A DNA stretch of 64,000 nt, taken from the NCBI GenBank assembly GCA_008802785.1, contig VUYT01000038.1, positions 105,697 to 169,696 of the forward strand. Reading direction: 5' to 3'. The stretch is from Symmetrospora coprosmae. Its lineage: Eukaryota > Basidiomycota > Cystobasidiomycetes > Symmetrosporaceae. Numbering within the stretch: position 1 is the first letter of the stretch; each line of letters opens with the position of its first letter. Below, piece after piece: positions 16,085 through 47,340 of the stretch. The notes beneath the pieces are model-generated. The model saw only the letters and a program-made list of their open reading frames with translations, was not told where the DNA came from and did not search any database. A program made the translations under genes and the position numbers.

Positions 16085-17002
16085 CTAGACTGACGTCTGA
16101 GAGACAGCTGTCATTCCAGCGCCAACCTTGTCCTCCGCGACGGGCACCCGTCGCCTGATGCTGCTCCTCTCGTCGCCGTCTTTGCCTGCCCTGCCTGCAA
16201 GCACGGCTTCGACCATCTCGGCATTGGTCATCTGTCCATCTGCGAGCTTCTGGAAGCCAGGCTCAGTGACGCCATACGCGAGCAGTGCGGTCTCGAGGAG
16301 AATGTCTGCCGTCAAGCCTGTCACGGGCGAAGGCATGGCGTCGTTGTGGAACTCGCGGAGGCGGAACGAGTGGCCTCCTAGCCACTTGACATCCTTATAC
16401 GCGTACGCGACGGGTGCTCGTTCGCTAGACGGGCCGTCCAAGCCGAGGATGTTGGGCAGGCCTAGGAAGTCTGCCAGCGGCCAGCTCCAGATGGCTCCGA
16501 CTTCAGCCTCGCTGGCCGTGAAGGTCTTGAGAATCTCATTGTCTTGCATCTGCGAGACTGCAACGACGGGCACTACGAAAAGGAGGTTTTTCGAGAGGAA
16601 GGGCGGCAGTGTCGTGATGACGTCGACCGGGACCGCAAGGCCAATCTCCTCCTCAGCTTCACGAATAGCAGTCCGCGCAATGTCGACATCGCCGTCCTCC
16701 ATGCGCCCGCCTGGAAGGGCAGTCTCGCCCGGGAAGGAGCGCATCGTTTTCGCGCGCGTTGTGAGGACCACCGACAGACCCGCGTCACCTGGACACAGTA
16801 GGACCAGAACGCCAGCGAGGCAAGCGCGAGGAAGCCTGCGCGAGATGCTCCACATCAGCATCGCCAGCTATTACCTATGCGGCTCGCCGCGCTCTGTGTG
16901 TGCTAACACACTCGAGGTGTTCCTGGCAGGCCGCATGCTGCCGAAGGCGCTCGAGCTCGGGCCGAGACTGTCGATCCGACGGAGCTGCGTCTGGCAACAC
17001 AT
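16085..17002 (-). CDS. Nudix hydrolase, CoA diphosphatase type
   Basis: Probably cleaves CoA to 4'-phosphopantetheine and 3',5'-ADP, like Pcd1/NUDT7/8, which in fungi is often peroxisomal. Exons 17002-16875 and 16835-16085 give 292 aa. The Nudix box reads GGRMEDGDVDIARTAIREAEEEIGL with the REAEEEIGL core intact and the one-residue longer spacing usual in CoA diphosphatases; upstream SFPGETALPGG replaces the family's usual SxPGG block. The core is preceded by LAGVLVLLC. The intron is 39 nt and its acceptance depends on reading frame alone, so the first 43 residues are less certain; another frame in that region starts at an ATG at 17039 but runs into a stop. The C-terminus (SQTSV) is not a peroxisomal signal. 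Confidence 0.8.
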
Positions 17003-17491
17003 CGCCCGATCTGCATTCTTGCAGTCCCTCGAGGGTATCCGTCATGTTGATATGCGCCCTTGAGCGAAAGCGATTCGGTTGGTCTGAGACGGAGGACTGC
17101 GGTCGGCCTAATGCAAGATGTGTTTGCCGCTCTATACGGGAATTGCTCTATCGATCATCGCATTAAGCCCGTACATGAATAACACATGGCGCTCTGCAGC
17201 AGTTCAGTTAAACAATATTCGAGACCCTCCTCGCCCCCTTTGCTCCACCTTCTTCCGCAATCGCGCCTGTCCAGCTGCGAAGTGGCTGTCTTTCCAGCAC
17301 AAATGGCTGCGGCGGGTTGTCTGATAAATAAGGCTGGTCCTGCGCACTGGGGGCCGCCAAATGATGGGATCAGAAGAATGGCGGATGATGCTCCTGACGC
17401 TCTTGAGGGCATTGACGTGCAGGTCCCCACCCCCGATTGCAATGCAAGGAGGATGCCGCCGCAGACTTCGTCAAGCATGTCCAGAGGCGCG
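17003..17491. other. Spacer between Nudix gene and arrestin-like copy 1
   Basis: Nearly 490 bp with only short open frames lacking codon or family support. It contains the Nudix promoter and the 3' flank of the arrestin-like gene; I see nothing else in it. Confidence 0.5.
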
Positions 17492-19073
17492 TCACGTCAG
17501 ACCCTGAGATGACGCCCGAGACGCGAAGCTTTCTGGCGCTCCCCGCTGCTCTATAGCTTTGAGCCTCTCCATCTCTGTCATCCTGTCTCTGCTCTCCTGG
17601 GCATCCTTCCATATCCGATAAACTTCCTCGGCGGGAATGCCATACTGCTTGACATCCTCGTCCTGCAGTGTCTCCTGACACATGCACTGCATATTCATGG
17701 GTCCCGCCGCGTCGGGGGAGGTTTTGCTGCTCTTTGCATACGCCGTCTTGGCTGATGCAGCCGGGTCAAGTTGAACAGCGGCACCTTTCCGCAGTCCGGT
17801 CGGACTGCTGAGTGCCTCCGCTGCACTCTCTTCGTATGTCGGAAGCTTGAAGTATTCCAGGCGGCAAAAGCAAGAAGAGAGGTTTGCTGGACAGCCGACT
17901 TCGAGTGCTTGCCTGCTGGGCGGTCCGAGAGGCTGCGCAGAGCCTGATTGTCCCTTCTCTGCCCCTGCCCCGTACTGCAAGAAGATGATCTGCATCTTCA
18001 ACTCGTGCGAGAAAGACTTGCAGGTTTCGGTCGTGCCGTGCGTCGAAGCTTGCACGAATGGACCTGAGCCGAACGGTATCCGGAACTGGCGGGAGATGAA
18101 CCTTTCTGGTGCGCCTGGGTAGTGAGTGACCCGCATCTGATCCCGCCATTTCTCGTCCTCGGCGAGTTCGTACAAGCGCCGTTTCTCCACACGCGTTTCG
18201 ATTGGGCCTGTCACGCTCGGTGAGGGCTTGGTCTGAACCGTCTGTATGAGGTCGACAATGATATTTTCGATGGTGAAGGGGTGCAAGACGTCGAACCATT
18301 GTCTGCAGAGCACATAGCGGGCGTGCAGTCAGCTAGACCGCTCGATTCGCAGAAGCAATCACGAGATCGCGGCAGACCACGCACATGTACCACCGCAGGT
18401 ATCCACCGATGATGAGATGCTTTGTCGACATCTCGATACGCGTCGGTCCAAAACGCTCGTGCAAGAATTCCTTGACCATTGAATGGCTAGGCGGAGGTCC
18501 GTTCTTCTCGCCCGACTTGTTGACCTGGAACCCGATCCTCTTTTTCTCAGCGCGCAGCTCGGAGCCAAAGGATCCGCAACCCTGTGCGACTGCATGAATG
18601 CGATAGAGTGTCTTGCCGTTCTCGTACCAAACACTCGGGGCGACATTGGGTGGGATCAGGAAGGAGAAGCGGAACGCGTGCCGTCCGGCGGGAAGGACCT
18701 CCTTGTCGCCGATCTCGAGCGAGAGGTCACGGCGCAATGTCTCGTGCCTGTGCTCCTTGTCGCGGAAGTTGAAGGTCTGCGTGCCGACCTGTCAAAGCAA
18801 GCAATGGCGAAGGTCAATGCACGTGTGACCCCATGTCGGTCGCATTCGTCGATGCCAACTTACCAGAGAGACTTGCAGTCCTTTGACCTGCTTTGGAGAT
18901 GCTAATGTGAGGATTGCGGTCCCCTCCACCACGGTATCTATGGTACGCGTCGGACCGAGACCGTCCTCCAGAGGCGATACGGCCGTGGGATATACGAAGA
19001 ACACGTTGGCATCTCCGTCGTCGAGGATGACTTCGAGTGTCGATGAGGCGACGCTTTTGTGCAGCCAAGACAT
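17492..19073 (-). CDS. Arrestin-like protein, copy 1 (intron-loss copy)
   Basis: Alpha-arrestin-like protein; such proteins usually link membrane transporters to an Rsp5-type ubiquitin ligase. Exons 19073-18864, 18788-18385 and 18302-17492 give 474 aa. The arrestin N-domain pattern is visible (DTVVEGTAILTL..VKGLQVSLVGTQ), then FRFSFLIPPNVAP, NGPPPSHSMVKEF and, in the C-domain, FISRQFRIPFGSGPF and ELKMQIIFLQY. A PY-like motif (LPTYEE) follows CFCRLEYFK. The tail has a conserved Cys pair (MQCMCQE). Compared with copies 2 and 3 the 110-nt and 288-nt exons are fused into one 404-nt exon in the same phase, so one intron has been lost. The fold is inferred from pattern and not from a search. Confidence 0.75.
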
Positions 19074-19254
19074 GCTCGTAGCCCTTCTGTAGTTCTCACA
19101 GATGATGTGCTCGAAGGAAGGAAGGCAAGAGGCGAGCAGAGCGCGAGACTGTGCGCGGCGATATTGCGTCGCACGGTACATGAGTCTGCGAACGCCCCGC
19201 TACTGATACTACACATTGCGCACGATGCCAGATCTTCTTCCATCGTTCTCGTAG

Positions 19255-20945
19255 CTACATCATCTGGAGCGAATAATTTTGCGGCCGGCTTCTCCTGCGC
19301 GAAGCCGCCGCCAGCGCCTCCGCTGCCGCTGCATACCGTCTCTCCCTCTCCAACTCCCGCTCGCGCTTCTGCCCAAAGACATCTCGCGCCGCCTTGTACT
19401 CCTCCCAGGCCTTGTACACCTCTGCAGCCGGGACGCCATACTCATTTACCTCGTCCTCGATCAAGTCCTGGCACAAGCATGGCGCCGTGAATGACCCTTC
19501 CTCTGGCGAGCGTGTGAGAGAAGACGAGCGCGACCTGGAAAGCAAGTCGGCCTTCTCCGCTTTTGTGTCGGCTGAATCTGCCGGCGACCTGCTGCGGGTA
19601 TCCGCTTTTGCCGAATAGGGCGGCAGTTTCGAATACTCTACGCGACAGAAGCACGAAGCAATCTTGACTGGCCCTCCGACCTGGAGGAGCTGACGCGTAT
19701 GGCGCGCCGTGCTTGGCCCAAAGGCGACTGGACCCGGCTCACTCTGGTCGAACTGCAGGAAAGTGACGGACAGGCGGATCTCATGGGCAAATGTGATGCA
19801 CGTCTGCGTCGTGTCGGGGTGCGTGGTCGCGCCGATCCACGGCCCCGCATCGTATGGTATCCGGAACTGGCGCGAGATCCAGACCTCCTCTTGCCCAGGG
19901 CACATCGGCTGCCTCACACGGCTGCAGAAGTCCTCCTCCTCGTCGGAGGTGTCGGCGGCTAGGAGCATGTCGTACAAGCGGCGTTCCTCGATGATCTTTG
20001 TCGGTGCCTTAGTCGATGTCAGTGTAGGCTTGATAGTGACGGTCTGAATCAGGTCGACCGTGATATTCTCTATGGTCGAGGGCTTCAGGAAGTCATCCCA
20101 TTGTCTGGCAGATGCGGCCGTCAGTACACATGGACGCTGTCCCGCGAGCAGAGGGCTATGCGCGAGTGACTTACATATACCAACGCAAGTAGCCACCAAC
20201 GAGGAAATGTTTGGTCGCTATTTCTATCCGTGTAAGACCGAAGCGATCATGGACGAACTCCTTCACTAAGCTGTAGCTGGGTGGCGGACCGTTCTTCTCG
20301 CCCGAGTTATTGACTTGGAGAGCGATCTTGCGCAGTAGACGCAGGTCCGACCCCAGTGCCCCACATCCTTGAGCTACGGCAAGGAGACGATGCCGTGTCC
20401 GGGCACTGCTATGCCAGAGGGTCGGCGCGACGTTCGGGGGGACAATGAAAGAGAAGCGGAATCTGAGGGTCACAGGCGGGCTCATCAGCCATTTGCTCGA
20501 CTGCTTCACACGCCTATACGCGTTCCGCGAGGACACTCACTGGTGGCGGCCTGCTGGCAAAACGGCCTCTGGAATGTCGACCTTGAGGTCCCGCCTGTAC
20601 AGCTCGGTCGTGTGCTCACGTTCCTTGTGCTCGACTATCTGTGTGCCGGTCTGCGTGATGCGTCCGCGACCTTGTCAGCCTCAGGCTTGCGGAAGCAGGG
20701 CTGCCCTCGGCCAAACCTACCAGGATCACCTCGACCCCCTTGACGCGTCGTGTGGCCGGCAGAGTGAGGATGACAACACCCTCGATGACGGTGTCGGCTG
20801 CAGAGGGCAGAGGGGGCGAGGATGAGGAAGCAGGACATGCAGCAGGATAGAGGAAGAAGAGGTCGGTGTCGTTGTGGTCGAGGAGGATCTCCAATTTGGG
20901 GTTGGCTGTGGACGAGCTTGAAGCAGGAAGGAGCCAGCTGGGCAT
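19255..20945 (-). CDS. Arrestin-like protein, copy 2
   Basis: Second member of the triplet, 490 aa. Exons 20945-20721, 20650-20541, 20462-20175 and 20104-19255, phases consistent. Shares with copy 1 DLFFLYP, EGVVILTL, VKGVEVIL, RFSFIVPPNVAP, SGEKNGPPPSYSLVKEFVHDRFG, GGYLRWYIQW, TIENITVDLIQT and WISRQFRIPY. The PY-like motif is KLPPYS, a better match to the PPxY ligand of WW domains than in the other copies. The C-terminus is an Arg/Glu-rich predicted coiled coil ending before MM. It is head-to-head with copy 3, so the two share a promoter region. Confidence 0.76.
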
Positions 20946-21421
20946 TGAAGGGACTCCTAACAGCTACAGGGACAGATGGGTGGTGACAATTGCGATGTAC
21001 AGAGCTGAAACAGAGTAACGAGAAGCAGAGAGGGGTAGAGAGAGCCCTGGCGCGACCCAGAGACGGAGGGACCCTGATGCGGGCTGGACCGACGGCATCG
21101 GACTCGGCCGTCCGGGAGAGGACGACCCACCGACCCACAGAAACCTCCACTGCTCACGTGGTCGAGGACGAGTCAGCAAGGACTTGCATTCAGTCTCCTC
21201 AGCGGCTGCAGCATATAACAGTGTATCCATTGACTCGATGAGTGACAGACATATGCATCCTCGCTCCAGTGACTCGTAGAATGGCCATATCTCTTCCTTC
21301 GGCTTACGGATCCCTTCGGACGTCTCACAGCTGCGCACGCGGGCTGCTCGCCCTCGAGGCACGTGCCTCCGACGTCTCTCTGCCGGACAACCTTTCATCA
21401 TACTGGCGCGCTTGGGCAATC
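20946..21421. promoter_or_regulatory. Divergent spacer between arrestin-like copies 2 and 3
   Basis: About 475 bp between the paralog-guided starts. An in-frame upstream ATG at 21281 could extend copy 3 by 47 residues, which would shorten the spacer to about 335 bp. No motif is evident. Confidence 0.45.
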
Positions 21422-22992
21422 ATGCTGCTGGGAGCAGTAGGCATATCGCTCGACATCTTCTTCAGCCAAGGAGATCTATTCTTTCTGTACCCGTCGGACC
21501 CTTGGCTAGGCCCGACGACAGACACGGTCATCGATGGCATCGTCGTCGTCAACCTCGCTGTCGCACAGCGCGTCGGTGTTCTGAAGATAGCACTTGTGCG
21601 TTACAGGCAGGCTGCGTACGCAGATGGACTGCTCATGCTGACTCACCGCTACCATATGCTCAGGTCGGCACACAGAAGATCCACCTCCTTGACCGAACGG
21701 ACTTCTGCGAGTTCGTCAAGAAGGAGGAGACCGTAGTTCTGAACGACAAGCGTCTCGCGGCTGGCAAGCATGAGTGAGTCTATTGTACACTGCGAGGAGC
21801 AAAGGGCGCATTCCTGAGCACGGCCCATCCTGCCCAGATTCCGCTTCTCCCTGCATCTTCCGGCGAACTCCGCGCCGTCTCAGCAATGCTCGCAAGGCGA
21901 GACGCGCTACAGCATTGTCGCCTCCTTGCCAGACACGGGATTCCTAGGCAACATTGTGAAAGCTGAGCGCAAGATAGCGGTGCACGTCTCGCATGCCGAA
22001 GAGCGGAACGGGCCTGCGCCCAGTTTCAGTATGGTCAGGGAAATCTACCACGATAGGTTCGGAGCGATGCGCGTCGAAGTCGTATCCAAGTACCTACTGG
22101 TTGCCGGATACCTGCGCCTGCATTGGTAAGCTTGTTGCACGGTAGCGACATCGACAACAGTATCTTACGCATCCACAGGTACATGCCGGAGGTCCCCGCG
22201 CCAGTCAAGGTGGAAGCAGTCATCATCGAGCTCCTTGAAACTGTCGGGATGGTCCCATTCGTCCAGAGCGGAAGCAAGAAGGCCCTCGCTCCAACAGCGC
22301 ATCGGGCAGCAGTCGCGGAGGAGCATCACTCGACCCATCAGATCTGGCACAGCGCCCATGACGTGTTGTACGACAAGATCAATACTACGCTGCCTATGAA
22401 AGACAACGATCGCATGCATTACTGCACGAGGCAGGCGCGTCTGCCCAATCACAGCACCATCTCACCCACCACATCCGCACACTCCGCAACAGGCATCAGG
22501 GTCTTGCACCGGTTCCGCGTCAAGATCATATACCTGGAGCCCAACTCGGGCACGAGTGCGGGAAGCTCATCTACCTCGCGCCAGATGCTCGAATTTGTGA
22601 GCGGGCCCGCACACATTACGACTTGCCATGCCCGACTTGAGTACACCAAGCTGCCAACCTACGAGGAAGCCAAAACTGATAGCGGGAAGGGCAAGAGCAA
22701 ACCGACTGGCACCATGGCTCGCGACTGCCTTTGCGCACAGGCGCTCCGGGGCGGGGAAAACACGGTCGAGCTCGACTATGGCGTCTCGCGGCAGGAGGTC
22801 CTCGACGCCTTCAACAGCAGTGAGCAGCAGCGCGTCTGGGCGTTCGAGAACATACGCGTCAAGACGGAGGAGAGGGCAGCAGCGGAGGCGCGCTCATTGC
22901 GGAACGACAGCGCGTCTAGCAGTCCGGCAACACCGAGTCTGTCTGCGAGATCGTCGTCTTCCGCCACTTCGGTGTCGGGGGTCAATCGATGA
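21422..22992 (+). CDS. Arrestin-like protein, copy 3 (inverted)
   Basis: Third and most divergent member, on the opposite strand, 461 aa. Exons 21422-21595, 21664-21773, 21838-22125 and 22179-22992; the two middle exons are 110 and 288 nt, identical in length to copy 2. Retained blocks are DLFFLYP, DTVIDGIVVVNL, VGTQKIHL, FRFSLHLPANSAP, ERNGPAPSFSMV and YHDRFGAMRVEVVSKYLLVAGYL, plus the PY-like LPTYEEAK. The C-domain is less similar and the IQWxxF block is replaced by YMPEV. The start at 21422 is chosen because it aligns with the starts of copies 1 and 2; the longer start at 21281 cannot be excluded. Confidence 0.74.
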
Positions 22993-23090
22993 AGGGCGAG
23001 GACAACTGGCGTTACCTTGCTACAACAACATACACGTATGAAGAGTACCTCCACCGCAACGAGCAGGAAGCGACGGCGATCACCGCCGTT

Positions 23091-24622
23091 TCAAACGTAC
23101 CCCAGCTTGCCACCCATCTTGAGCGTCTCGAGCACCTTGTCTTTCAAGCGCGTCCATGCCGCCCCGACCTCGCCTCTTGCCGAATGCCCGCGCCGGGCGA
23201 GCCGTCTCCGCCAGAAGCCGGTCAGGAGCAGAATGAGGAAGAAGGTGTTTAGCAGGCGGGACGAGGCGAGTCGCGAGAGGTATTGCGGGACGAGCTGGAG
23301 GACAGACAGCGGTGTTGGGGAGGGCGGTCGCGCCGTCGAAGGGAGCAAAGACCGCGTCGAGGAGGCCGCTGCTGCTCCGTCGGACAAAAAGCTGGTGAGA
23401 TGTGATCGGAGCGCCGCGAAGCCCGTGTCGGCCGAGAGGCTGGCAGACAACGGATTCGAATCTCCTAGCGATCGGCCCTGGAAGTGCCCTGTGCCTCGGG
23501 CTTTTCCTGCCGATGCAGAGCTGTGCGAGGGCGGCGATGTGTGTGCGTTCGCTTCGTTGGACTGATTAGCAGAATGTGAGATCTTGCGCCTCTGCCCCGC
23601 GGATTGTGGTTGTCGTTGCTGCTGCTGCTTCTGCCTCTCCAAAGCCTCTGTGCGTGCTTTCTCGCGCTCATGTGCGAGCTGAGCATCTTGCTCCTGCTGG
23701 CGCTCTGCGCTCTCGAGCTCGTGCAGAAGGCCCTGCGAATAGCATGTAAGAGGGCTCATGAGCTCCCGTACTAAGCTCACTACAGCACAGCATGGCTCAC
23801 CTGCGCGCTCGCCTCCGGGACGAGCTGAATCCCGGCTTCCTCTGATCTTTGCTGCTCGACCCAGCTTTTCGCTCCTTTCCACTCCTGGAACGTCTTCCCC
23901 AGCAAGTGTATCGCATAGATTCTTGCTAACCTATTCAGGCTCTTGCTCCAGTCCGCCCGAGCAGGGGTTGCGGACGTGGATGCGGCAATCCCGGAGAGCG
24001 AGAGGTCGGCTGTCGAGGCGTCAGCGGCTGCGAGGTAGCCGGACGTGTCACCGCTTGCTGCCTCCGGCGACGTGCTACCCGGTTGCTCTGGGTCGGCATA
24101 CAGCAGCACGTCAAAGTAGTCTTCGAGGGTACGCCTCGCAAAGCCTGGAGCGGAGACCTTTAGGCCCGCCAGAGACAGGGCGACCATGATGGACGGGTGG
24201 ATCACAGCTGACGATCTGTAGTACCGCTGTATCTTGCTGAATGTTTCGGCCAGCTGGAGCTCCCTTGTTGAAGAGTTGGCGCTGCTCCCCGGTGACTGAC
24301 CGCGTGCGAGGTCGCCGGAACCCGATATTGTCGCTGTCGGCGACGTCGAAGCTGTTAGGGTGAGCTGCAGGATCCAGATTTTGCGGATCACGTCGGCGAA
24401 GGCTTCCTTGTCCCTTCCCACACCTTCATCTCCTGCTGTTTCACCTTCTGCCTCGGCCTGTGTCAAGAGCTCCTGCACTGTCGCCTGGCAGCGGGCAAAG
24501 TCCCGGAGGAGGAAGGCGTGCGACGCATCAGAGTACGCAGAGGTGCAGCGGGACAGACGATCATGCGACGGTGCGATGGATCCTGGCCAGTGAGGATTGT
24601 CGTCGTTGCGTGAGATGCTCAT
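23091..24622 (-). CDS. PEX26: Pex26-like tail-anchored peroxin
   Basis: Probable membrane anchor for the Pex1-Pex6 AAA export complex on peroxisomes. Exons 24622-23801 and 23732-23091, 487 aa. The N-terminal helical region resembles fungal Pex26: a block around FLLRDFARCQATVQELL, KIWILQLTL, an ARRTLEDYFDVL segment, and SLNRLARIYAIHLL followed by KTFQEWKGAKSWV. A Gln-rich charged linker follows. Near the C-terminus is one membrane segment (LNTFFLILLLTGFW) with a strongly basic tail (RRRLARR), the arrangement of tail-anchored peroxisomal proteins. Identification is from remembered block order and topology; primary conservation is weak, so other tail-anchored proteins remain possible. The leader contains a C13 run on the sense strand. 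Confidence 0.6.
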
Positions 24623-24644
24623 CGCGCATCCTCGGGATACGGGA

Positions 24645-24657
24645 GGGGGGGGGGGGG
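24645..24657 (-). repeat. G13 homopolymer (C13 on the PEX26 sense strand)
   Basis: An uninterrupted 13-nt run lies 23 nt upstream of the PEX26-like start at 24622, inside the 201-bp spacer shared with the divergent phosphatase gene. Confidence 0.9.
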
Positions 24658-24823
24658 AAGAGTGGACAAGGGGTGTGTCCCTCCACTGCGGCTTCGGCTT
24701 TGGGTCGGGGAGTTCCTCCTCCTCTTTCACCTGCCCACGAAGGAGGGCTGTCCCTTCTCTTTGCTCCCCATCTACTTAGTGCGCTTGGACAACGGCAAGG
24801 GGTACAGGCAAGAGAGATGCACA

Positions 24824-27800
24824 ATGCAGCACCTCCGTAACCACCTCAGCAGCAGTGCGGACCGGGATGAAGAAGGCAGCAGCGAGCTGTCGTACCTTCG
24901 TCGCGGCGGTGGCGAGGATCCCGTGCTCATGGAGGAGGAGGAGGATGGGCGCGTCGAAGCAGTAGAGGCATATCAGGAGCAGCAGCTGCATCGTCAGCAG
25001 CAAGAGACGGGATTACCATCTTCAAGTCGCGCAGCCGTATCTGCCTTGGCTTCCCTGCGCTCTCCCCTCAGGCGGGCCCGCCCGCTGGTTGCGCCCGCAC
25101 CTGTAGAGGCACCCGCAGCTGCAGCTGCAGCTGGCACGGGACCCGGCTCACTCTCCCCAAGCACGCTCACAGCACGGACGCTCAGGGAGGAGAAGACGCC
25201 GACAGCCAACCACTTCAGTCATGCAGATATGCTGCTCCAGCGGCATCCACCTCCGCTGCCGACTCCAGCGTCGCCAGATGCCCCGATGCGGCGCAGTGGG
25301 AGCGCGACAGCACGCGAGCACCCGTCGGATGACATGATCTCGCCGCGAACAGTCCCTTCGAGCTATCAGCCCTCGCAGGGTGCGTACAGTGCCGCTCCTC
25401 TTTGCACATATCACGTGTCTATTGCATGTCCGGCTGACTTGTTGATATCGTACGCCTTGCGCAGCAGCCGCCGCATTGGAACGGTCCCCGCTGCCGCTGG
25501 AGTCGCCGTGGGACCACCCATCCTACTCGCAGCCCCCGTCACCCTCACAGTCTCTCCACTCACCCGCCACGGCATATTACACCCCAACTTCAGCGCACCC
25601 GGACAGATGGCGACCGCGTCTCGATTCCCATCGAAACAGCTACAATGCGCTCATCTCGAGCCCGAGCACGCCCGGCGGCATCAACAAACGCAACTCCTTC
25701 CACCTGGCCGCATCCACAGGCACTAGCGGCAGCTCGTCTGCCAACCCTTTGCGGCGCAGCTTCACCGGCGCTAGCCCCGCAGCACAGCACCCCAGCAGGC
25801 TGTCCCGCGACTTTGGCCAGCCGCCGCCCTCTGCGCCCATCGAGGGTTTCAATGACTCGATGCCGACCTGGCAGCAGCAACTGCGCAGTAGCCACAGGTC
25901 GAGCGCCTCCATGTCGCTCTCCCGAAGCAACAGCAGCAGGTCAGGGCATGCAAACAGCAACGGCAGCCGAGGCAACTCGCGGCGGAGCAGTCGGAACCTC
26001 GACTCGTACAGCTTCAGCTCGGCTGCTGCTCTATATGCGCAGGTGCCTCACTCAGCGCTTTCAATACAATCCTCGAGCTCAGAGGAGGACGAGGAGGATG
26101 AGCGTGGGACAGGTCTGAAGCGCTCACAGACCAAACAGGCGGCAGCTCTCGCTGCGGCTCTAGCAAAGTTGGAAATGCTGCAGGACAGCAAAGCAGGACC
26201 TTCGTCACCGCTGTCCAACTCCTCTGCTGCGCTTCGAGTTGCGGGACAGCCCGACAGCGAGCGGAGGTGGCGGCCGGCCCCGTTGCCGACGTCCGACATC
26301 GCCTTGAGCGCCCAACCAAATCACCCCGAAAGTTCCGTACATGCGGACAGCAGAGTCGCTTACGGAAATGACGCCAGCCTCGACTACGAGGATGGAGTCA
26401 GTCACGTCCACGGCGGCGTGAATGCGGTTAACGGACGTACCGAGAAGATTGGCGGAGGCGTCAGTCGGCGCAAACGACAAAGCACGGAAAGGCCGACAAG
26501 CCGTCGGCCAGAGGAATCTGCGGACGACCCATCACAGGGACCTCTTGCCTCCCATGCGCCCTCGGTATACTGCACACCCACCCTCGATTCGTTCCCGGAC
26601 GCGGACCCGCAAATCGACCTTCGCCGTTCATCCTCCTCTTCATCGTCTCAGCCTTCACACTCCGCCCGTTCCGGCACACAATCAGACCGGCCTTCATCAA
26701 CCACAACTAGCATGCTCGCGCTTGGCAATACCGTCTCTTACCCTGTCATTTCAGCTCGTACACTGCAGCAACCACTCAACCCCAAAGATACCCGCGGTCT
26801 ACGACTCGATTTGCCCAAACAAGCCTCATCTCGACCTCGCTCAGGCTCGGCATCGCTGACGAGCCCACAGCCTCTCAAGCTCGGCAGCGTCGGCGCCATG
26901 GCACGGAGAGACTCGCAAAATCGCGCCAGTGCCGGAGACAGAGCCCGCATGAACCCCCTGCGGCTGTCCGGAGCGGGTCGCCGGTGTCCTCCGCCGTCTG
27001 CCTCTGCAGCACCGCAAATTCCGGCTTTCGCAAAAGCAGTCGCCGTGACTGCCGACACGCTACTGCAGCGACTGCATGAGGATCGTGCGCAGGCTGGCTC
27101 GGCAGAGATGCTGGTGCTTGACCTCCGCCCACTGCACCTCTTCCTGGCTCAGGACGCTAGCCCTCGCGTCGGTCGGATACGCGCGAGCGTGAATGTCAAT
27201 TTCCCTTCCCTCCTCATCAAGCGCTTCCGAAAGGGCAACACCACGTCTTTCAACCTCGAGTCCTTCATTACCACCGAGACGGGCAAGCGCTCCTTCCGCG
27301 ACGCCTGCCCATCTGGCAATCTCTCGAACGTGCACCTGTGCGTCATCGACGAGAGGCTTGGAGAGCACGACTTTGCTAGTCTGGAGAGTACAGGCGCGAT
27401 CGGAGCCGTCCTGATCAGCATGCTCGAACGGAGAAGAGCCGATGCTGGGGAGGGAGAGACACTGGGAAAGCGAAAGGACCTGTGGTACTTATCAGGGGAA
27501 GTTGCGGACCTCGTTCTAGCAGGTCGAGCTCGCTACCCAAGCCTTTGCGCCGAAGGAGCAGATGACGGCGAGCGGTCGCCGAACAGGCTAAGTCCGAAAG
27601 TGGGAATCGCCGCCTCGTCGAATTTGCAGCCCTCTCCTGCAGGATCATCAGGCTCGTCCATCGGGAGTGATGTACCAACGCCGACGATGGTATCCTCTTC
27701 AAAGCTAGTCCACTCGCACTCCGACAATGCTCTGGTCACCCAGTCCTCCTTTGCAACGCGCAAAGGACGGAACCTGCCCCAATTGACACTCGCTCCATCT

Positions 27801-29592
27801 AAGCCATCGCTAGAAGGAGACAAGCTTGGCTCTGGTCAATACATGACGCGGCCTCGTCCTTTGGCACCTAACCTCGCTGCCGTACCGCCTACGCCTGGGC
27901 TGTTCCGCTCGTACTCGGAGAACCAGTCCGCCACGCTCCGAGAGCTACCTGAATCGGCCATTCCGGGTCTGCAGCGAAAGAAGGCTCGTCCTGCGCAGCT
28001 TCAGCGCCTGGACTGCTCGGACAGCGTCAGACAGGGGATCGCTTCGTCCTCCACTGCCGGACCCAGGCTCGCGCCCGGCCGGAACGACGCTGGCAGTGGT
28101 ATAGCCGGCTCGAGTCAGCGTTTGGCGGGCGGTCTTTCTGGTAAGCGCCAGGGACTTCCAGCCTCTCTGGCTCCGCCCAAATCTTTTCAAGAGATCGCAA
28201 TGGCACAGGCAGCTACGCCTACGCGGGCCTCCTTTGCGTCCGCTGCCAGCATGGGTCAATCCAGCCAACTTGCGCGGGGTTCGGACGACTACATGATGGA
28301 TCCGCCAAAGACTCCGATGGTCGCCTCCTACTCGCACAGTCGTAATGATAGCACTTCATCTGCAGGCAGCTCGAGCTCCACGTCCACTGCACAGTATCCT
28401 ACTTTTCAGTCGCCGGAAGGGCCGCCGCAGCCACAGCCGCAGTTGTTCCAGCCTCTTCAGCCTGCTCGAGGATGCAACCAGAATGGCACCCATCCCAACG
28501 GGGCCGCTAACGACAATAAATCTGTGGCGCCTTTCAATGTCTCCGTCATCATTCCCGGATTCCTGTATTTGGGGCCCGAGCCGATCCGCCCATCGGACGT
28601 GGAGGAGCTGGAGTCGGTGGGCATCAGACGCATCCTGAACATGGCTGTCGAGTGTGATACTCAAGAACGGTGGAAGGGTCGCTTCGAGAAGATTGCTACG
28701 ATTCCTATGCGGGACAGCCTTGCCGAGGTCAACGTGCAGGACCGGATCAAAGAGGCGTGCATGCTCATTGGCGATGCCGACTTGCACCAGAAACCGACGT
28801 ACGTGCACTGCAAGGCAGGCAAGAGCCGCAGCGTCACAATTGTTCTAGCATACTTGATACATCGGTAGGCGGAAATATCCAACCGAGTGGGCAGATACCT
28901 GGGCTGACTCGCCCGCCGCATTCTGCAGCAATCACTGGCCTCTGAAGCGAGCATATGCACATGTGTCTGAGCGGAGGAAAGGCGTCTCGCCCAATATTGG
29001 CTTCGTTGCCGAGCTCATGCGCTTCGAAGAAGCGGAACTGGGCTCACGCTCACAAGGCGTGATCGGCAGCGGCAACACGCCGGTACCCGAGCATTCAGCC
29101 CAGAATTCTCGAGACGGCTATTTTCACGGAACGCACAGCAAGAGTGGGTCGAGCGCTTCGGCAGCGTCTTCGGCATCAGCCTCTGCTTCAACGGCTGCCT
29201 CTCCTGGCGCGGGTGCTTCCACGCCCAGCACGGCTCGCAGCGAGTCCAGCGTCCCTACGTCACTGGATGGGCGTCCGACCATTGTGCGCCATCTCAGTCT
29301 CATCGCAAATACCGCTATGAACCTTTCGGCAGACCAGGCAGGATCGAAGGCTGCGAAAGAGGCGCAGGCGCAGGCACGAAACGCAAGGGTTCGGGAGTCG
29401 CTCCCACCGGGCGTTGGTTTCGCCGGCCTGCTGAAAATGCAGGATGAGCAAGAGTCACGGCCTGGGCATACGAGAAGGTGAGTCCGCTTTTGCGGTCTTA
29501 CATGCCTGTGTTCCCAAGCTCATGCCGTGCGCATGCTGCCCTTCAGTCGCAGTAAAACAGGCATCGATGGCGTGCCACCATCCTTCTTTTAA
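24824..29592 (+). CDS. Large dual-specificity phosphatase with rhodanese domain (MAPK phosphatase type)
   Basis: Probable MAP kinase phosphatase, similar in plan to Msg5. Exons 24824-25379, 25465-28864, 28929-29477 and 29547-29592, 1516 aa. About 700 residues of Ser/Pro-rich low-complexity sequence come first. A rhodanese/CDC25-like domain follows (about 710-900; LVLDLRPLHLFL, INFP-like VNFPSLLIKRF). The catalytic domain begins at VSVIIPGFLYLG (about 1210), with the active-site loop HCKAGKSRS (Cys about 1300) and AYLIHRNHWPLKRAY, which is completed only after splicing. The last intron begins GTGAGT; without splicing the frame stops at once (RR stop), with splicing 15 more residues follow. Divergent from the PEX26-like gene. 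Confidence 0.87.
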
Positions 29593-31556: not shown

Positions 31557-34042
31557 ATGCCGCCTGGACGCCAGCGAGGGAGCGCCACTCGCGGTCGAGG
31601 AGGTCGAGGGAGAGGCAGAGGCGGATCAGCAGGAGCAAGAGCAGGAGCGAGCAGAAGAGCTACCAGTGGCATTAACGATGACGACGACGACGATGAGCTC
31701 GACGACGATGTGGGCGACGCCGACTTCAAGCCGAAGCACGTCTCAAAGAAGCGCGGTGGAGCAGCAGGAAGCGTGACTGGAAGGGCAAGGGACAAGACCA
31801 GAAAGTCGGCTCCGCGGGTGAGGCAAGGGCGTTCAAGGTTGATTGGTGTTTCTGAAATGCTGACGCATTCTGCCGTCTATTGTATGCCACTGCTCCTGCT
31901 GTCGCTGCTTGGAATGACGCGCGCCTTCCCACCTCACGTCCGCTGGCTCGCCCGTACTTCTCCTTGGGCGTCACCGCTCGCCCGGTGCTCGCGGGCGCGC
32001 GCGTGGCTGATCCCGCAGTTGATGGAGGATCCGGCAAACGATGAGAGGGAGCTCGCAGCAAGGCTGAAGCATCTCGGCCTCTATGCTGCCAATACGTGGG
32101 GCTGCCACCGTCTCCCTCCTTCTGGCTGCTTCATGATCTGATGCGCTACCCCTCTCCCTCACCCACGTCAATCACCGAAATGACCGATCGGATGGCATGG
32201 CCAATCTGCCTGGCTGCACTGCTCAACCCATTCGCTTCAAATACTTCGCTCACATGCCCCTCACGGCTGACGGCCACCCCTGAAATGCTACGATCCATCC
32301 GCCTTTATCGCGTCGGGCCCCATTTGTCAGCCTGGGCGATGGTTCCTGCCTCTTCCGCTCGCTTTCAGACCAGATGCACGGCACGCCCAACCACCATCTA
32401 TCCATACGCACCGAAGTCTGCGACTTCCTCTTGGCTCATCGCGACGAGTTCATCGCCTTTATCGACGACAGCAACCACTCCTCGCCGGAGGCAGCCTTCG
32501 CATCGCATGTCGCCGAGATGCGCATGACAGCGACTTATGGCACTCAGGTCGAGATTGTCGCCTTTGCTCGATTGTTCAAGCGGAGAGTCAAGGTCATCCA
32601 GGCAGGACTCGTCTACGTTATTGGCTTTGAGGACGAAAGCCCTTCCGAGCGTGAGAGAAGGGCAAAGCGGAGAGATAGCAAAGGCAAGATGAAGGATGAA
32701 GGGGATGATCTGCCGGATCTATATATTGTCTACCACAACTGGGAGGTGGGTGTGACTCCTGACGTGCCCCTCACAGTTCAGTCCAGAAGGTCGGGCTGAG
32801 CACAAGTTCACCCTGCAGCACTACTCTTCGGCCCGCAACATCCAGGGTCCGCATGCGGGTCTGCCATGTATCATCGACGTCAAGCAGCCCGTTACGTCCC
32901 AGTCGGAGGCACCATCGGCAGACGAGCTCGTCCCAACTCAGGAGGAATCCCTCGTTTTGTCGTCCATCCGCTTTCCCCACCGTCACACAGTACCCGAGAT
33001 TCGTAAACTCATTCAAGACAGTGGAGGCAACTGGGAAACGGCGCTCGAGTTGCTCCTCGAAAACGAAATGGACGAAACAGAGTCAGAAGACTTTAACAAC
33101 ATCTCGCCCTCGTCTCATGCCCAATCTCTCCCTATGCCCGTTCCGACAATCGGCATCACTTCTGCTACTCCCGGCAGCTTTCCAATCACTTCACATCACG
33201 ACCTTCAAGATCCGTCTGGATCACCAAACCCTTCAATAGCGCGCTACTCTTCCGCATCTACTACTAGCTCGACCGCCACTTCTGCCACCCGCCAAACTAC
33301 GAGTACCTCCCTCACGCGCCTCTCAGATCTGATCAGCGAGTCGAGCAGCAGCACTATCCCTTCGACTAATGGCATCGACAAGATCATTCCGCCGCCTGCA
33401 CCATCGTCCATCGCGAGCGGCTCCTCCCGAGTTCGTTCGCGCGCCAACTCGACGGAGCATCCAGACATTACTGCGGCGGAGTCTCCTAGGCAGCGCTTCC
33501 GCATCTCCAGAGAAGCCGCGGCGGGGGACGACTCTAGCGCTGCTGGTGATGACCCGACCGCCCATGACGGCAGTAGTGTTGTCTCTACGTCAACGTCGGG
33601 CTCGTCGTCTGCCTCACACGCGGGTGAGCTTGAAGGAGCATCATCGGACGCTCGGGCGAAGAACAGCGTGCTCGTCGAGAGCCTGCCACCCGAGCCACCG
33701 GCAAAGCCCCGCAGGGGACGGCCGCCTAAGAACCGGGATGGACTAAAGCCTATCATCATCAAGGTGCCGACGCGAAGACAGAGGAAGCAGTGAGTTCTTA
33801 CAGTCTGGTACAGCTTTTGAGCAGGCAGCGCTCGTGTAGTTGAGCTTCGGCTCACGCGAGCAAGAAAGGGATGAGTTCGCTCAGTAGATGTCCCTCCCTC
33901 CTATCTCTGCCTGCTTCCCCTCAGGATACTCAAAGCCGGCGGCTCGCCTGCGATCGGTTCGCGTACGAGGAGCAAAGTCGCCTCGGCCAATGGCAAGGAA
34001 GAACCTGCTCTGCAGCGAGAGTTTAAGGAGCTCTACGTATAG
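31557..34042 (+). CDS. OTU-family deubiquitinase with UBA-like segment and AT-hook
   Basis: Cysteine protease that removes ubiquitin; closest in plan to OTUD3. Exons 31557-31817, 32019-32095, 32331-32745, 32777-33789 and 33925-34042, 627 aa. An Arg/Gly-rich start and an Asp run precede the OTU domain. Catalytic Cys is C119 in LGDGSCLFRSLSDQ, formed across a splice junction; catalytic His is H266 in QHYSSARN. A UBA/CUE-like helix set (IRKLIQDSGGNWETALELLLEN) follows at about 320-345. An AT-hook (PRRGRPPKN) at about 563 suggests DNA contact. Intron 3 is only 31 nt. The last intron begins GTGAGT and its TGA would end the protein 40 residues early if retained. Confidence 0.87.
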
Positions 34043-44443: not shown

Positions 44444-47340
44444 CTAGGTACTGCGGGTCAATGCTTGCCATATAGCCTCTTCGACCTTTGCCAAGGTGCT
44501 TCGTGGCGTGTTCAGGCTGCTCATCCAGTAGCAGGTATTGCCCAGCGGTCGAGCGTGAACGGCGAGATGTTCCTCGAATTCCGCGCCAGTGGGGCCAGGG
44601 TACCGAAGCTCCTCGAGGAAGTCCACCGAAACGGTCGATTGATATCCTGTCGAGTCCGGGCCATACAAGCATATCAGCAGGCTCCCTGCGTCCCGTGCTG
44701 TACACAGGGGACGAAACGCTCACCTGAATTGTGGGCGTCGCGGAGATATATGACGAGCACAGTCCCCATGGCCATGACTCCGTCAACCTGCGATAGCTCC
44801 ACTATCCGCTCGATGAAAGCTTTGTCCCACACGCTGAAGATTTCGCGCTCCGCTGGTAGGCCAGTCAATGGGGAGCTATCGTCTGCACGAGACGAGTTCA
44901 TCGACGCCCAGCTCTTCTTTGCCTGATTCCACTCGACACCAGTCGCGTCAAGCTCCGTGATAAGGTCGAGCGTTTTATTGGCAACGGCACTCCCGATAGG
45001 GTGGGCAGTATAGCTGTGCCCGTGGAGCAGTGCATCTTGTTTTTTCTCTCCGAGGAAAAGATTGAATACCTCCTTACTTGCTAGCGTCACGGCCATGGGC
45101 ACTAATCCTCCCGTGAGGATCTTTGCATAGCAGGCAACGTCGGGCTTGGCACCCAGCAAGGTGGACGTGGTCTGGTGTCCGAGGCGGTAAAGGCCGACAA
45201 AGACTTCGTCAAAGACAACTGGCAGAGGCAGCGGGAGCGCTTTTTGCTGTGAGTGTGACGATAGCCAAGGCGCACGCGCGTACTCGACCAGCAGTCGCTG
45301 GAAGAGCGGGTCGACAAAGAGCATCCCGCCTGCGCCCATCACGATGGGCTCCATGACGAGTGCGCCGAACGTCAGACCAAGTCGGTCCCGAGCATCTTCG
45401 ACTAGAGTCGCGATATGCTCCTTGTATCTCGCAATGAGCGGATCGTTCCTGTTCGCCAGGCGAGTCTCGACGTTGTAGATGTCGTCAAGGCTGTCACAGA
45501 CGAGAGGGTCCGGAGCCGTCGCGGACGCCTCCCACTGATCGCCTTCGAAGCGGATGACAGCTTTTCCTCCTTTCTCGATTTTGACGAGCGGTGCGTCTAG
45601 CCAGAACCCCCTTCCCCGATACCACTCGACGGTTGTAGAGTATACGCTCGGCTCGCTGGCGTCCATTGCTCCGATTGTGTCGCCGTGGTAGCTCCCTCTA
45701 AGGCCGAGGACTCCCAACTCGGTCCTTTCTATCGTGCGCTTCGGTTGCTGAGTTTGCTCTGCTGCCCTCGCATCTGCTAGCCGGCTAGCCGTTTGCCGAA
45801 GCGCCATCTTGAGCGCAACTTCCATGCCCGTGCTTCCATCGTCCGAGAAGAAGACCCGGTCCGCCCAGTCCTTGCCTACTGTCGCGAGGAGACGCTCAGA
45901 CAGCGTGACGGCGGGCTCGTTGGACGCATTGGGAAAGATGACGTGCCCGTATCTGCCGGAGGCATGGGCAGCAGCGAGGGTAAGGTCGACGTTGGCGTGT
46001 CCGAGGCACTGCGTCCACCATGAAGCGGACCCATCGAAAGTGGGGACGAGCAGGGATTGTTGACTTTCTGCTCTAGTCTCCTCTGTAGCGGCGCTGGATT
46101 CGTAGTGACTGCCAGCAAGCGCGCTGCTCCCTCGCAAAACGGAGAAGTGGTCGCCCAGCGCAGAATCGATGACCATCACGTCGCCATCGCTCTTGGTAAG
46201 CGAATGCTGGACAAATGGCCACCAAACATGGTCTCGCGTCCGCTTTGGGAGGCTGTCCAAAGCTGCCAATCGAGCCTCGTGCGCCTTATCCAAGCGAGCG
46301 ACGACATCTTGCACTCTATTGCCTGCTGGAACGTCCTGATCTGAGATACTGGCATAGAAGTCGTTCATGTGCTCAATGTCGCGCTGTCGCTCCTCGTTCG
46401 ACATGGCTGCAGAAGCGGGAGTTGCTGCTGGGGGCCTGACCATGCCGAATGGAATACCTTTCTCGTCGGACCAGCGAGAGAAGTACTTCCAGTTGGCATA
46501 GTAATCCTCCTCCAGGCAAAGCAGGGCATCGATGTCGTAGCCACGCAGAAAGAGGGATTCGTACGCGGAGAGGGTAGTGCTGATACCGCCAAGGTGCGGG
46601 GAAGCGATGAGGATGGTGGGAAGACGCAATGGGCGATACGCGTCCACTTGGGAAGCGCCTGTCAGCGTCGGCGAGTGTGGGCCTGACATCCAAATGTTCC
46701 GGGCATTTTAATCAGCTTGGCAGGGCCATCATCAACAAAGCTCGTGTCCCCCTTCCGGCTCGCCAGGCGCCACACACCTCCTGCAGTCTCGACATAGAGA
46801 CTTGCTTTCTCGGTTTGAGACAGCCCGCCGGCTATGCTTCCTGCGAAGCGGACAATGCCTTCGTTGACGAGCGCGTCTGATGGTGGGGTGTACTGTTTTT
46901 GGGGCCAGAAAGCTGCCAGTGAGCAGGGGGTATTCTCCTCTCCTGCGATGGCGTCAATACTCGACATGACTCACGCTGCCATCCTTCTCCCTGGCCAGCT
47001 CGGCTGCCAGATGCGGGCTGACTGGCTCGTCAAAGTAGTGCAGACAGGTTGTCGAGCGCGTCCGTGGGGCGAAAGTCGAGACGTGCCTGGAGAGACGGAC
47101 GGGCGTCCCGCTTCAGAAAGCAATGGCCAGGCGGCACGGCCAGCGCCATGCAGACAGAGATGTAGACGGACGACGAGATGCTCACCAATCGTCGCCGTGC
47201 CCTCCTGTGCCCACTGGCTTGAAGTAATGCGCTGGCCTGCTTGTCGGAGCTGCCCGACAGAGTGCCGTCGCGAAGAGCGTCTTTCCGACCTCTGTGTTTG
47301 CCCCAAAGATCTGGTGCACACGGAGGTTGCGGAAGAGCAT
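44444..47340 (-). CDS. bioDA: Bifunctional dethiobiotin synthetase / DAPA aminotransferase
   Basis: Carries two consecutive steps of biotin synthesis in one chain. Exons 47340-47186, 47086-46975, 46892-46778, 46682-44724 and 44646-44444, 847 aa. The N-terminal BioD part has P-loop GANTEVGKT, YFKPVGTGG, YVETAGG and LPTILIASPHLGGISTTL. The C-terminal BioA part is a class III PLP aminotransferase: SWWTQCLGHAN, FSDDGSTGMEVALKMA, GSYHGDTIGAMD, PVVFDEVFVGLYR and Schiff-base Lys in CYAKILTGG (about residue 646), HGHSYTAHPIG, RPLGNTCYWMSSLN. All key residues are present, so a working enzyme is expected. Divergent from AP-3 beta with 236 bp between starts. Confidence 0.93.

Follow-up and report, generated by a model that had tools for sequence, protein, structure and literature searches.

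Three adjacent arrestin-like genes in a 64,000-nt stretch of the Symmetrospora coprosmae genome (contig VUYT01000038.1; this whole stretch is referred to below as the window) raise the question of whether they arose by duplication in place, and of what role their products may have. Alpha-arrestins help choose which transporters and receptors leave the fungal cell surface. Our analysis indicates that the three genes encode paralogous alpha-arrestin-like proteins that arose by local duplication with one inversion, belong to a family of at least 16 members and probably serve as ligase adaptors. The gene models were as follows (window positions).

17492..19073, minus strand: copy 1 (C31_1), arrestin-like protein, 474 aa, three exons; Pfam PF00339, 40.3 bits
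19073-18864, 18788-18385, 18302-17492, minus strand: exons of copy 1 (gene model)
19255..20945, minus strand: copy 2 (C31_2), arrestin-like protein, 490 aa, four exons; Pfam PF02752, 37.1 bits
20945-20721, 20650-20541, 20462-20175, 20104-19255, minus strand: exons of copy 2 (gene model)
21422..22992, plus strand: copy 3 (C31_3), arrestin-like, 461 aa, four exons, inverted; Pfam PF00339, 32.4 bits
21422-21595, 21664-21773, 21838-22125, 22179-22992, plus strand: exons of copy 3 (gene model)

The open frames of all three copies were full-length, and all eight introns (53-82 nt each) had GT..AG borders. The inner exon borders of copy 2 were also recovered by spliced alignment with copy 1 as the query. 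The start of copy 3 was placed at the ATG at 21422 because the distance from start codon to first conserved block is similar in other members; a second in-frame ATG, at 21281, may serve as an alternative start. In spliced alignment with a 16-member profile, which included copies 1-3 themselves, the three genes scored 591, 537 and 552, respectively, and the window background reached a maximum of 41.7 (15 other 3.5-kb stretches, both strands, 30 scores).

Homology to the arrestin family, proposed in the initial annotation, was confirmed, as each copy exceeded the gathering cut-off of one Pfam arrestin model. Arrestin_N (cut-off 24.9 bits) was matched by copy 1 at 40.3 bits and copy 3 at 32.4 bits, with copy 2 just under at 24.2 bits; Arrestin_C (cut-off 27.7 bits) was matched by copy 2 at 37.1 bits over aa 191-324. 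No Pfam match was found in the C-domain region of copies 1 and 3, both of which align with copy 2 there, and an Arrestin_C match of copy 1 was placed on its N-domain. At E <= 0.01, Arrestin_N matches were present in 11 of the 16 family members and Arrestin_C matches in six, the position of the latter being listed for copy 2 only. AlphaFold predictions for contiguous exons of the window (three rows each) were unusable, with a mean pLDDT of 40.1 for the C-domain and 35.9 for the N-domain, and a phmmer search of PDB with copy 2 alone yielded nothing meaningful. When the 16-member profile was compared with solved structures, the best match was human ARRDC3 (E 0.17 and 0.19, not significant), which was the only arrestin among five matches at E <= 10 and was aligned over the GxHEFxFSF stretch.

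Members of the same family were abundant in this genome (20.05 Mb, 77 contigs). At least 16 were identified: three contigs (C31, which contains the window, C22 and C55) carry a trio each, C65 carries a pair, and five members are single. The initial annotation held that arrestin-like adaptors rarely cluster; in this genome, 11 of the 16 members are clustered (3, 3, 3 and 2). Membership was defined as a score above 300 in a first round of spliced alignment with copies 1-3 and their profile as queries. The weakest member reached 313; hits other than members, including four arrestin-like places and wrong-strand chance hits, did not exceed 106. All 16 places were recovered by each of four member queries and then modelled. 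Pairwise identity among the members was 21-67%. The four further arrestin-like places (C22:699k, C55:589k, C44:808k and C7:213k) were outside the family, scoring 27-68 with the 16-member profile (both strands). Two of them, C22:699k and C55:589k, were above the Arrestin_N cut-off and C44:808k was below it; C7:213k had an Arrestin_C match below the cut-off. Two additional candidates, C65:748k (E 0.04) and C74:441k (E 0.13), were rejected as members, since their spliced scores of 30-33 were at background level. Searches of viral and prokaryotic contig collections, which are uninformative on fungi, gave pattern matches and no relative by tblastn. A report of a clustered arrestin family of this kind was not among the matches listed in a literature search, most subscription journals being outside its coverage.

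How the triplet arose was assessed by analyzing its position among these relatives. In two trees, copies 1-3 formed one clan against the 13 relatives from the same genome (SH-aLRT 100 / UFBoot 100); both trees are unrooted, the four outside arrestin-like places being left out, and cover relatives from one genome only. Identities among copies 1-3 were 46, 32 and 30%, compared to 21-29% with other members. Across the family, relatedness followed location: contig labels changed six times on the tree, a value as low as this being reached in none of 10,000 shuffles, and eight times when clusters and singles were labelled apart (3 of 10,000 shuffles as low). The trio on C22 has the same -,-,+ order as the window trio, and its origin as a duplicate of the latter was ruled out by both trees.

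Comparison of introns provided a second line of evidence. The initial annotation reported exons of 110 and 288 nt common to copies 2 and 3, and these lengths proved exact. It also described shared phase-2 joins, which holds for the last intron, in phase 2 in all three copies, but not for the first shared intron, which is in phase 0. The common pattern of exon joins was likewise incomplete, as copy 1 is without the middle intron and its 404-nt exon spans that position. The intron directly after the 110-nt exon occurred in 7 of the 16 family models and thus predates the triplet. By contrast, the last intron was present in all three window copies and in none of the 13 other family models, and was the sole intron special to the triplet. 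According to the comparison of 16 models, it is located at the following positions.

18303..18384, minus strand: triplet-specific phase-2 intron, copy 1
20105..20174, minus strand: triplet-specific phase-2 intron, copy 2
22126..22178, plus strand: triplet-specific phase-2 intron, copy 3

The 100/100 clan, together with an intron that none of the 13 relatives has, makes local duplication of copies 1-3 a well supported reading of these sequences, and the higher identities within the triplet agree with the earlier proposal that the duplication was old and that one copy was inverted. It is highly improbable that the three genes instead represent separate old arrestin families that happen to adjoin. 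Their high divergence (30-46% identity) and the use of unrooted trees with relatives from a single genome would be compatible with such an origin; however, the separation of the triplet from the other 13 members in both trees, the shared triplet-only intron and the agreement between location and phylogeny largely contradict it within this genome.

Copies 2 and 3 are transcribed away from each other, and the stretch between them was considered as a possible common control region.

20946..21421, no strand: 476-bp intergenic stretch between the divergent copies 2 and 3, candidate shared promoter (gene models)

The initial annotation joined the two genes by a head-to-head promoter. The arrangement is real, with 476 bp between the start codons, but use of this stretch as a shared promoter of copies 2 and 3 is a possibility suggested by the layout. 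Counts of seven patterns (GATA, CCAAT, STRE, PacC-like, CGG-CCG, CCCTC and TATA) in the 400 bp preceding each of the 16 genes, compared to 139 400-bp stretches of the remaining window with genes included, revealed no convincing enrichment: CCCTC was present in 13 of 16 versus 57% and STRE in 10 of 16 versus 39%, uncorrected for the seven patterns.

The PY-like motif reported behind the C-domain was confirmed in all three copies as LPTY, LPPY and LPTY, and a cysteine motif was detected further downstream (LPxY positions are from aa positions and exon models).

17834..17845, minus strand: LPTY motif, copy 1 (aa 358-361)
19615..19626, minus strand: LPPY motif, copy 2 (aa 368-371)
22651..22662, plus strand: LPTY motif, copy 3 (aa 349-352)
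17678..17686, minus strand: CMC tail motif, copy 1 (aa 411-413)
19471..19479, minus strand: CLC tail motif, copy 2 (aa 417-419)
22726..22734, plus strand: CLC tail motif, copy 3 (aa 374-376)

LPxY occurred behind the C-domain region in 16 of 16 members and in the same alignment columns. Only nine columns were invariant in the 16-row alignment, three of them being the L, P and Y of this motif (ten columns with modelled N-termini, start Met counted). The third letter was A in six members, D in four, T in three, G in two and P in one; because it varies family-wide, the suggestion that the PY variants of the triplet reflect split ligase binding or cargo was not supported. In 12 of the 16 members LPxY was the sole [PLVA]PxY motif, and it was positioned 8 or 9 residues after an invariant Cys. 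Two cysteines were invariant across all 16 members. The first Cys of the CxC tail was conserved in all 16 and the second in 14. No description of the invariant cysteines or of the C[LMI]C...YG tail was found in the portions of the alpha-arrestin literature available to us; as a guess, the CxC...YG tail might be a small switch linked to metals, redox or membranes.

These conserved residues also bear on whether some of the copies are decaying duplicates that have lost function, which we consider improbable. Copy 3 has a long terminal branch (0.97, versus 0.48 and 0.64 for the others) and its SCxC cysteine pair is cut to one Cys, as might be expected of decay. However, in all three copies the open frame is full-length, the splice sites are canonical and the invariant residues of the family are kept. 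In addition, dN was lower than dS for each of six tested pairs, with dN/dS figures among the three copies of 0.50/2.5, 0.71/1.5 and 0.72/1.6; dS is saturated, and the direction alone is usable.

A candidate partner for the LPxY motif was present in the same genome. An Rsp5-type gene at C7:86210-88114 contains three WW domains followed by HECT, and is the only place where listed WW and HECT matches lie within 2 kb. Rsp5 WW domains accept PPXY or LPXY (PMC2810449, available text). By analogy, the 16 members are most likely cargo-specific Rsp5 adaptors, a putative assignment for both binding and cargo. In the proposed mechanism, which extrapolates from what alpha-arrestins are known to do, the arrestin lobes would recognize particular transporters or receptors in the membrane by their cytosolic parts, the Rsp5-type ligase would receive LPxY in one of its WW domains, and the cargo would be ubiquitinated and then endocytosed, with the many paralogs sharing out cargo among themselves. 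A rather unlikely alternative is that the family kept the arrestin fold but left the ligase pathway, its members acting as scaffolds (pheromone/MAPK or pH signalling) in which LPxY is structural at the edge of the C-domain. The location of LPxY directly behind the last conserved C-domain stretch and near an invariant Cys fits a structural role, and a hemi-arrestin MAPK scaffold, Sms1, is described for fission yeast in the available text of PMC13144348. However, the exact Rsp5 docking consensus is retained in 16 of 16 members despite 21-67% identity, its x position is free, as in a docking motif, and the genome carries a matching ligase gene, all of which argue against this alternative.

Beyond the triplet, we tentatively suggest that the family may represent a distinct type of alpha-arrestin, defined by LPxY directly behind the C-domain and a CxC...YG tail with invariant cysteine, that expanded by birth and death in this lineage and could provide 16 to about 20 adaptors per Rsp5 ligase. 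If so, the number of adaptors would be four to five times that published for smut and Cryptococcus models, implying combinatorial, fast-evolving remodelling of the cell surface, perhaps linked to nutrient niche or host. With one subfamily represented by 16 or more members, most of them in clusters, this compact genome offers a natural experiment in the growth of adaptor families and their division of cargo, and the conserved LPxY and cysteine tail are sharp, testable sites.

The family resembles fungal alpha-arrestins/ARTs (S. cerevisiae Art1-Art10, C. neoformans Ali1-Ali4 and U. maydis Art3) in Arrestin_N/Arrestin_C homology, in a PY-type motif on the C-terminal side of the arrestin domains and in an Rsp5-type ligase in the same genome. 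It differs in its PY sites: LPxY is usually the only one in the present family, whereas Ali1 and Ali2 of C. neoformans have at least two PY motifs (PMC11481503) and human alpha-arrestins, apart from ARRDC5, carry two C-terminal PY motifs (PMC9105457), a difference that weighs against the adaptor reading. It also differs in number. According to the available parts of the respective papers, four alpha-arrestins are predicted in U. maydis (PMC9704768) and four are reported in C. neoformans (PMC6867901), counts for two basidiomycete models that may miss divergent members; model ascomycetes have nine to eleven (PMC6867901), and another paper gives 13 for yeast (PMC8890662). The same paper describes a likewise fairly large fungal set of 12 members in Arthrobotrys oligospora, and no mention of clustering or LPxY-CxC features was found in the part of it that was available. 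A large repertoire of at least 24 alpha-arrestins is likewise reported for Caenorhabditis elegans, but this is an animal (PMC5657022, available text). Compared to known fungal alpha-arrestins, the present genes belong to one subfamily that has 16 or more genes, 11 of which are clustered, in a single 20-Mb genome.

Three spliced genes, obtained by reading both strands of positions 16500-24500, together extend over exactly positions 17492-22992, with copies 1 and 2 on the minus strand and copy 3 on the plus strand. All eight introns are of the GT..AG type and 53-82 nt long, and their phases are 0, 2, 2 in copies 2 and 3 and 0, 2 in copy 1. These models confirmed the three-gene arrestin-like array proposed in the initial annotation, as well as the exact lengths, 110 and 288 nt, of the exons shared by copies 2 and 3; copy 1 contains a fused exon of 404 nt. 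In Pfam searches (cut-offs of 24.9 bits for Arrestin_N and 27.7 bits for Arrestin_C), Arrestin_N was matched by copy 1 (40.3 bits) and copy 3 (32.4 bits), whereas copy 2 passed the threshold for Arrestin_C at 37.1 bits and fell just short of that for Arrestin_N at 24.2 bits. The Arrestin_C match of copy 1 sits on its N-domain and copy 3 had no Arrestin_C match in Pfam, so the C-domain assignment of these two copies rests on alignment with copy 2.

The genome containing the window (20.05 Mb, 77 contigs) was searched with copies 1 and 3 and two further members as separate queries. All four identified the places of the same 16 genes; two additional weak places were rejected as members. Since the genome search scores best candidates only, the family has at least 16 members. 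In the first round, with the three window copies as sole queries, scores of the 13 other genes ranged from 313 to 438, and no other hit exceeded 106. The window trio scored 537-591 against the family-alignment profile and the 13 others 581-813 with an earlier-round family profile, values that favour members because their sequences are part of the profile; four other arrestin-like loci outside the family scored 27-68 with the family profile, and other window stretches reached at most 41.7 with the same kind of profile (30 tests). The other family places were modelled with a purpose-written spliced aligner, which recovered the inner exon borders of copy 2 from copy 1. At E <= 0.01, Arrestin_N was detected in 11 and Arrestin_C in 6 of the 16 members. 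The top solved structure for the 16-member profile was ARRDC3, yet with an E value of 0.17, and structure predictions gave no usable model. Eleven members are clustered.

Genomic layout of the family, by contig
C31, with the window at 105697-169696: three members (window trio)
C22: 502.2-507.5 kb (502190-507540), strands -,-,+, trio
C22: 529 kb, single member
C55: 374.2-379.5 kb (374228-379520), all minus, tandem trio
C55: 319 kb, single member
C65: 429.0-432.6 kb (429042-432590), tandem pair
C44, C8 and C11: one member each

In the C22 trio, start codons of the divergent pair are 182 bp apart and all three proteins terminate in ELMR. Branch lengths are markedly unequal in the C55 trio, and the C65 pair shares 67% identity.

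Copies 1 and 2 are 46% identical, copies 1 and 3 32%, and copies 2 and 3 30%; identity to the other 13 members is 21-29%. Two IQ-TREE runs, one on the full alignment and one on 389 well-filled columns under another model, both separated the window trio from the 13 others with support of 100/100, and copies 1 and 2 from all others with 100/100 and 99.8/100. Both trees are unrooted and contain sequences from one genome, and the lineage-restricted clade named initially as a test of local expansion holds within this genome. Intron positions of the 16 models were mapped onto the family alignment. A phase-0 intron is present in 13 models, and the phase-2 intron closing the 110-nt exon in 7, implying that the latter predates the triplet and that its absence from copy 1 most probably reflects a loss. 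All three window copies and none of the 13 others have the phase-2 intron closing the 288-nt exon, a pattern which, together with the 100/100 split, supports the proposed origin of the trio by duplication. Contig labels on the tree required 6 changes, compared with a mean of 10.5 and a minimum of 7 in 10,000 shuffles; when clusters and singles were labelled apart, 8 changes were needed (mean 11.6; 3 of 10,000 shuffles as low). This agreement is accounted for by duplication in place and a degree of dispersal. The C22 trio genes are mutual kin, grouped with the C8 gene, indicating that the -,-,+ layouts of C22 and the window arose separately. In all six pairs tested dN was below dS; because dS was saturated, this is no more than an indication of selection.

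Promoter patterns upstream of family genes revealed nothing firm. At E <= 0.01, seven of ten flanking frames matched Pfam models, including an RFC subunit, an oxidoreductase and the following:

16121-16813, minus strand, NUDIX hydrolase (Pfam)
27027-28853, plus strand, dual-specificity phosphatase (Pfam)
32368-32745, plus strand, OTU-type cysteine protease (Pfam)

The remaining three had none; two of these, at 23091-23750 and 23813-24733, adjoin copy 3. None of the ten frames offered a functional clue, and the NUDIX, phosphatase and OTU genes show no obvious link to the trio. By eye, a long frame at 44707-46620 (minus strand) resembles a putative DAPA aminotransferase/dethiobiotin synthetase fusion.

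Nine alignment columns are invariant in all 16 members (copy 2 G56, G187, T302, H315, C359, L368, P369, Y371 and C417), three of which belong to LPxY, the PY-type motif just behind the C-domain region. Its x is A in six members, D in four, T in three, G in two and P in one; the LPTY/LPPY contrast is thus not special, and the earlier suggestion that it marks split ligase binding or cargo is not supported. The second Cys of SCxC, the second Cys of the C[LMI]C tail, the tail Y and the tail G are each conserved in 14 members. The C65 proteins stop soon after LPxY, and their CxC...YG tail is absent after the first Cys, whose column placement depends on the alignment; a missed last exon is possible. 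A second PY site occurs near the C-terminus of two members (C44, PPLY; C55_376m, LPTY), and an additional PY match lies within the arrestin region of copy 2 and C55_379m. Besides LPPY, copy 2 has a canonical PPSY inside this region (20273-20284, minus strand; aa 172-175), which reads PPSH in copy 1 and APSF in copy 3.

PPXY and LPXY are described as recognition motifs of Rsp5 WW domains in the available text of PMC2810449, and the genome has an Rsp5-type gene at C7:86210-88114, whose product combines a HECT domain with three WW domains. Given the arrestin body and strictly kept LPxY, the simplest reading is that family members are probably adaptors in ubiquitin-dependent endocytosis, in which LPxY would engage a WW domain of an Rsp5-type ligase.

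Four alpha-arrestins were predicted in U. maydis, where mislocalisation of the pheromone receptor Pra1 upon Rheb activation requires Art3 and Rsp5 (portions of PMC9704768). C. neoformans also has four, of which Ali2 acts with Rsp5 on targets including the nucleobase transporter Nbt1 (portions of PMC6867901 and PMC11481503). At least four times that number thus occurs in this one subfamily of the genome studied here, a comparison to be made with care because published counts are based on recognisable arrestin domains and Arrestin_N reached E <= 0.01 in only 11 of the 16 genes here. The main interest is an expanded, clustered family with invariant LPxY and cysteines, a variant of the known alpha-arrestins.
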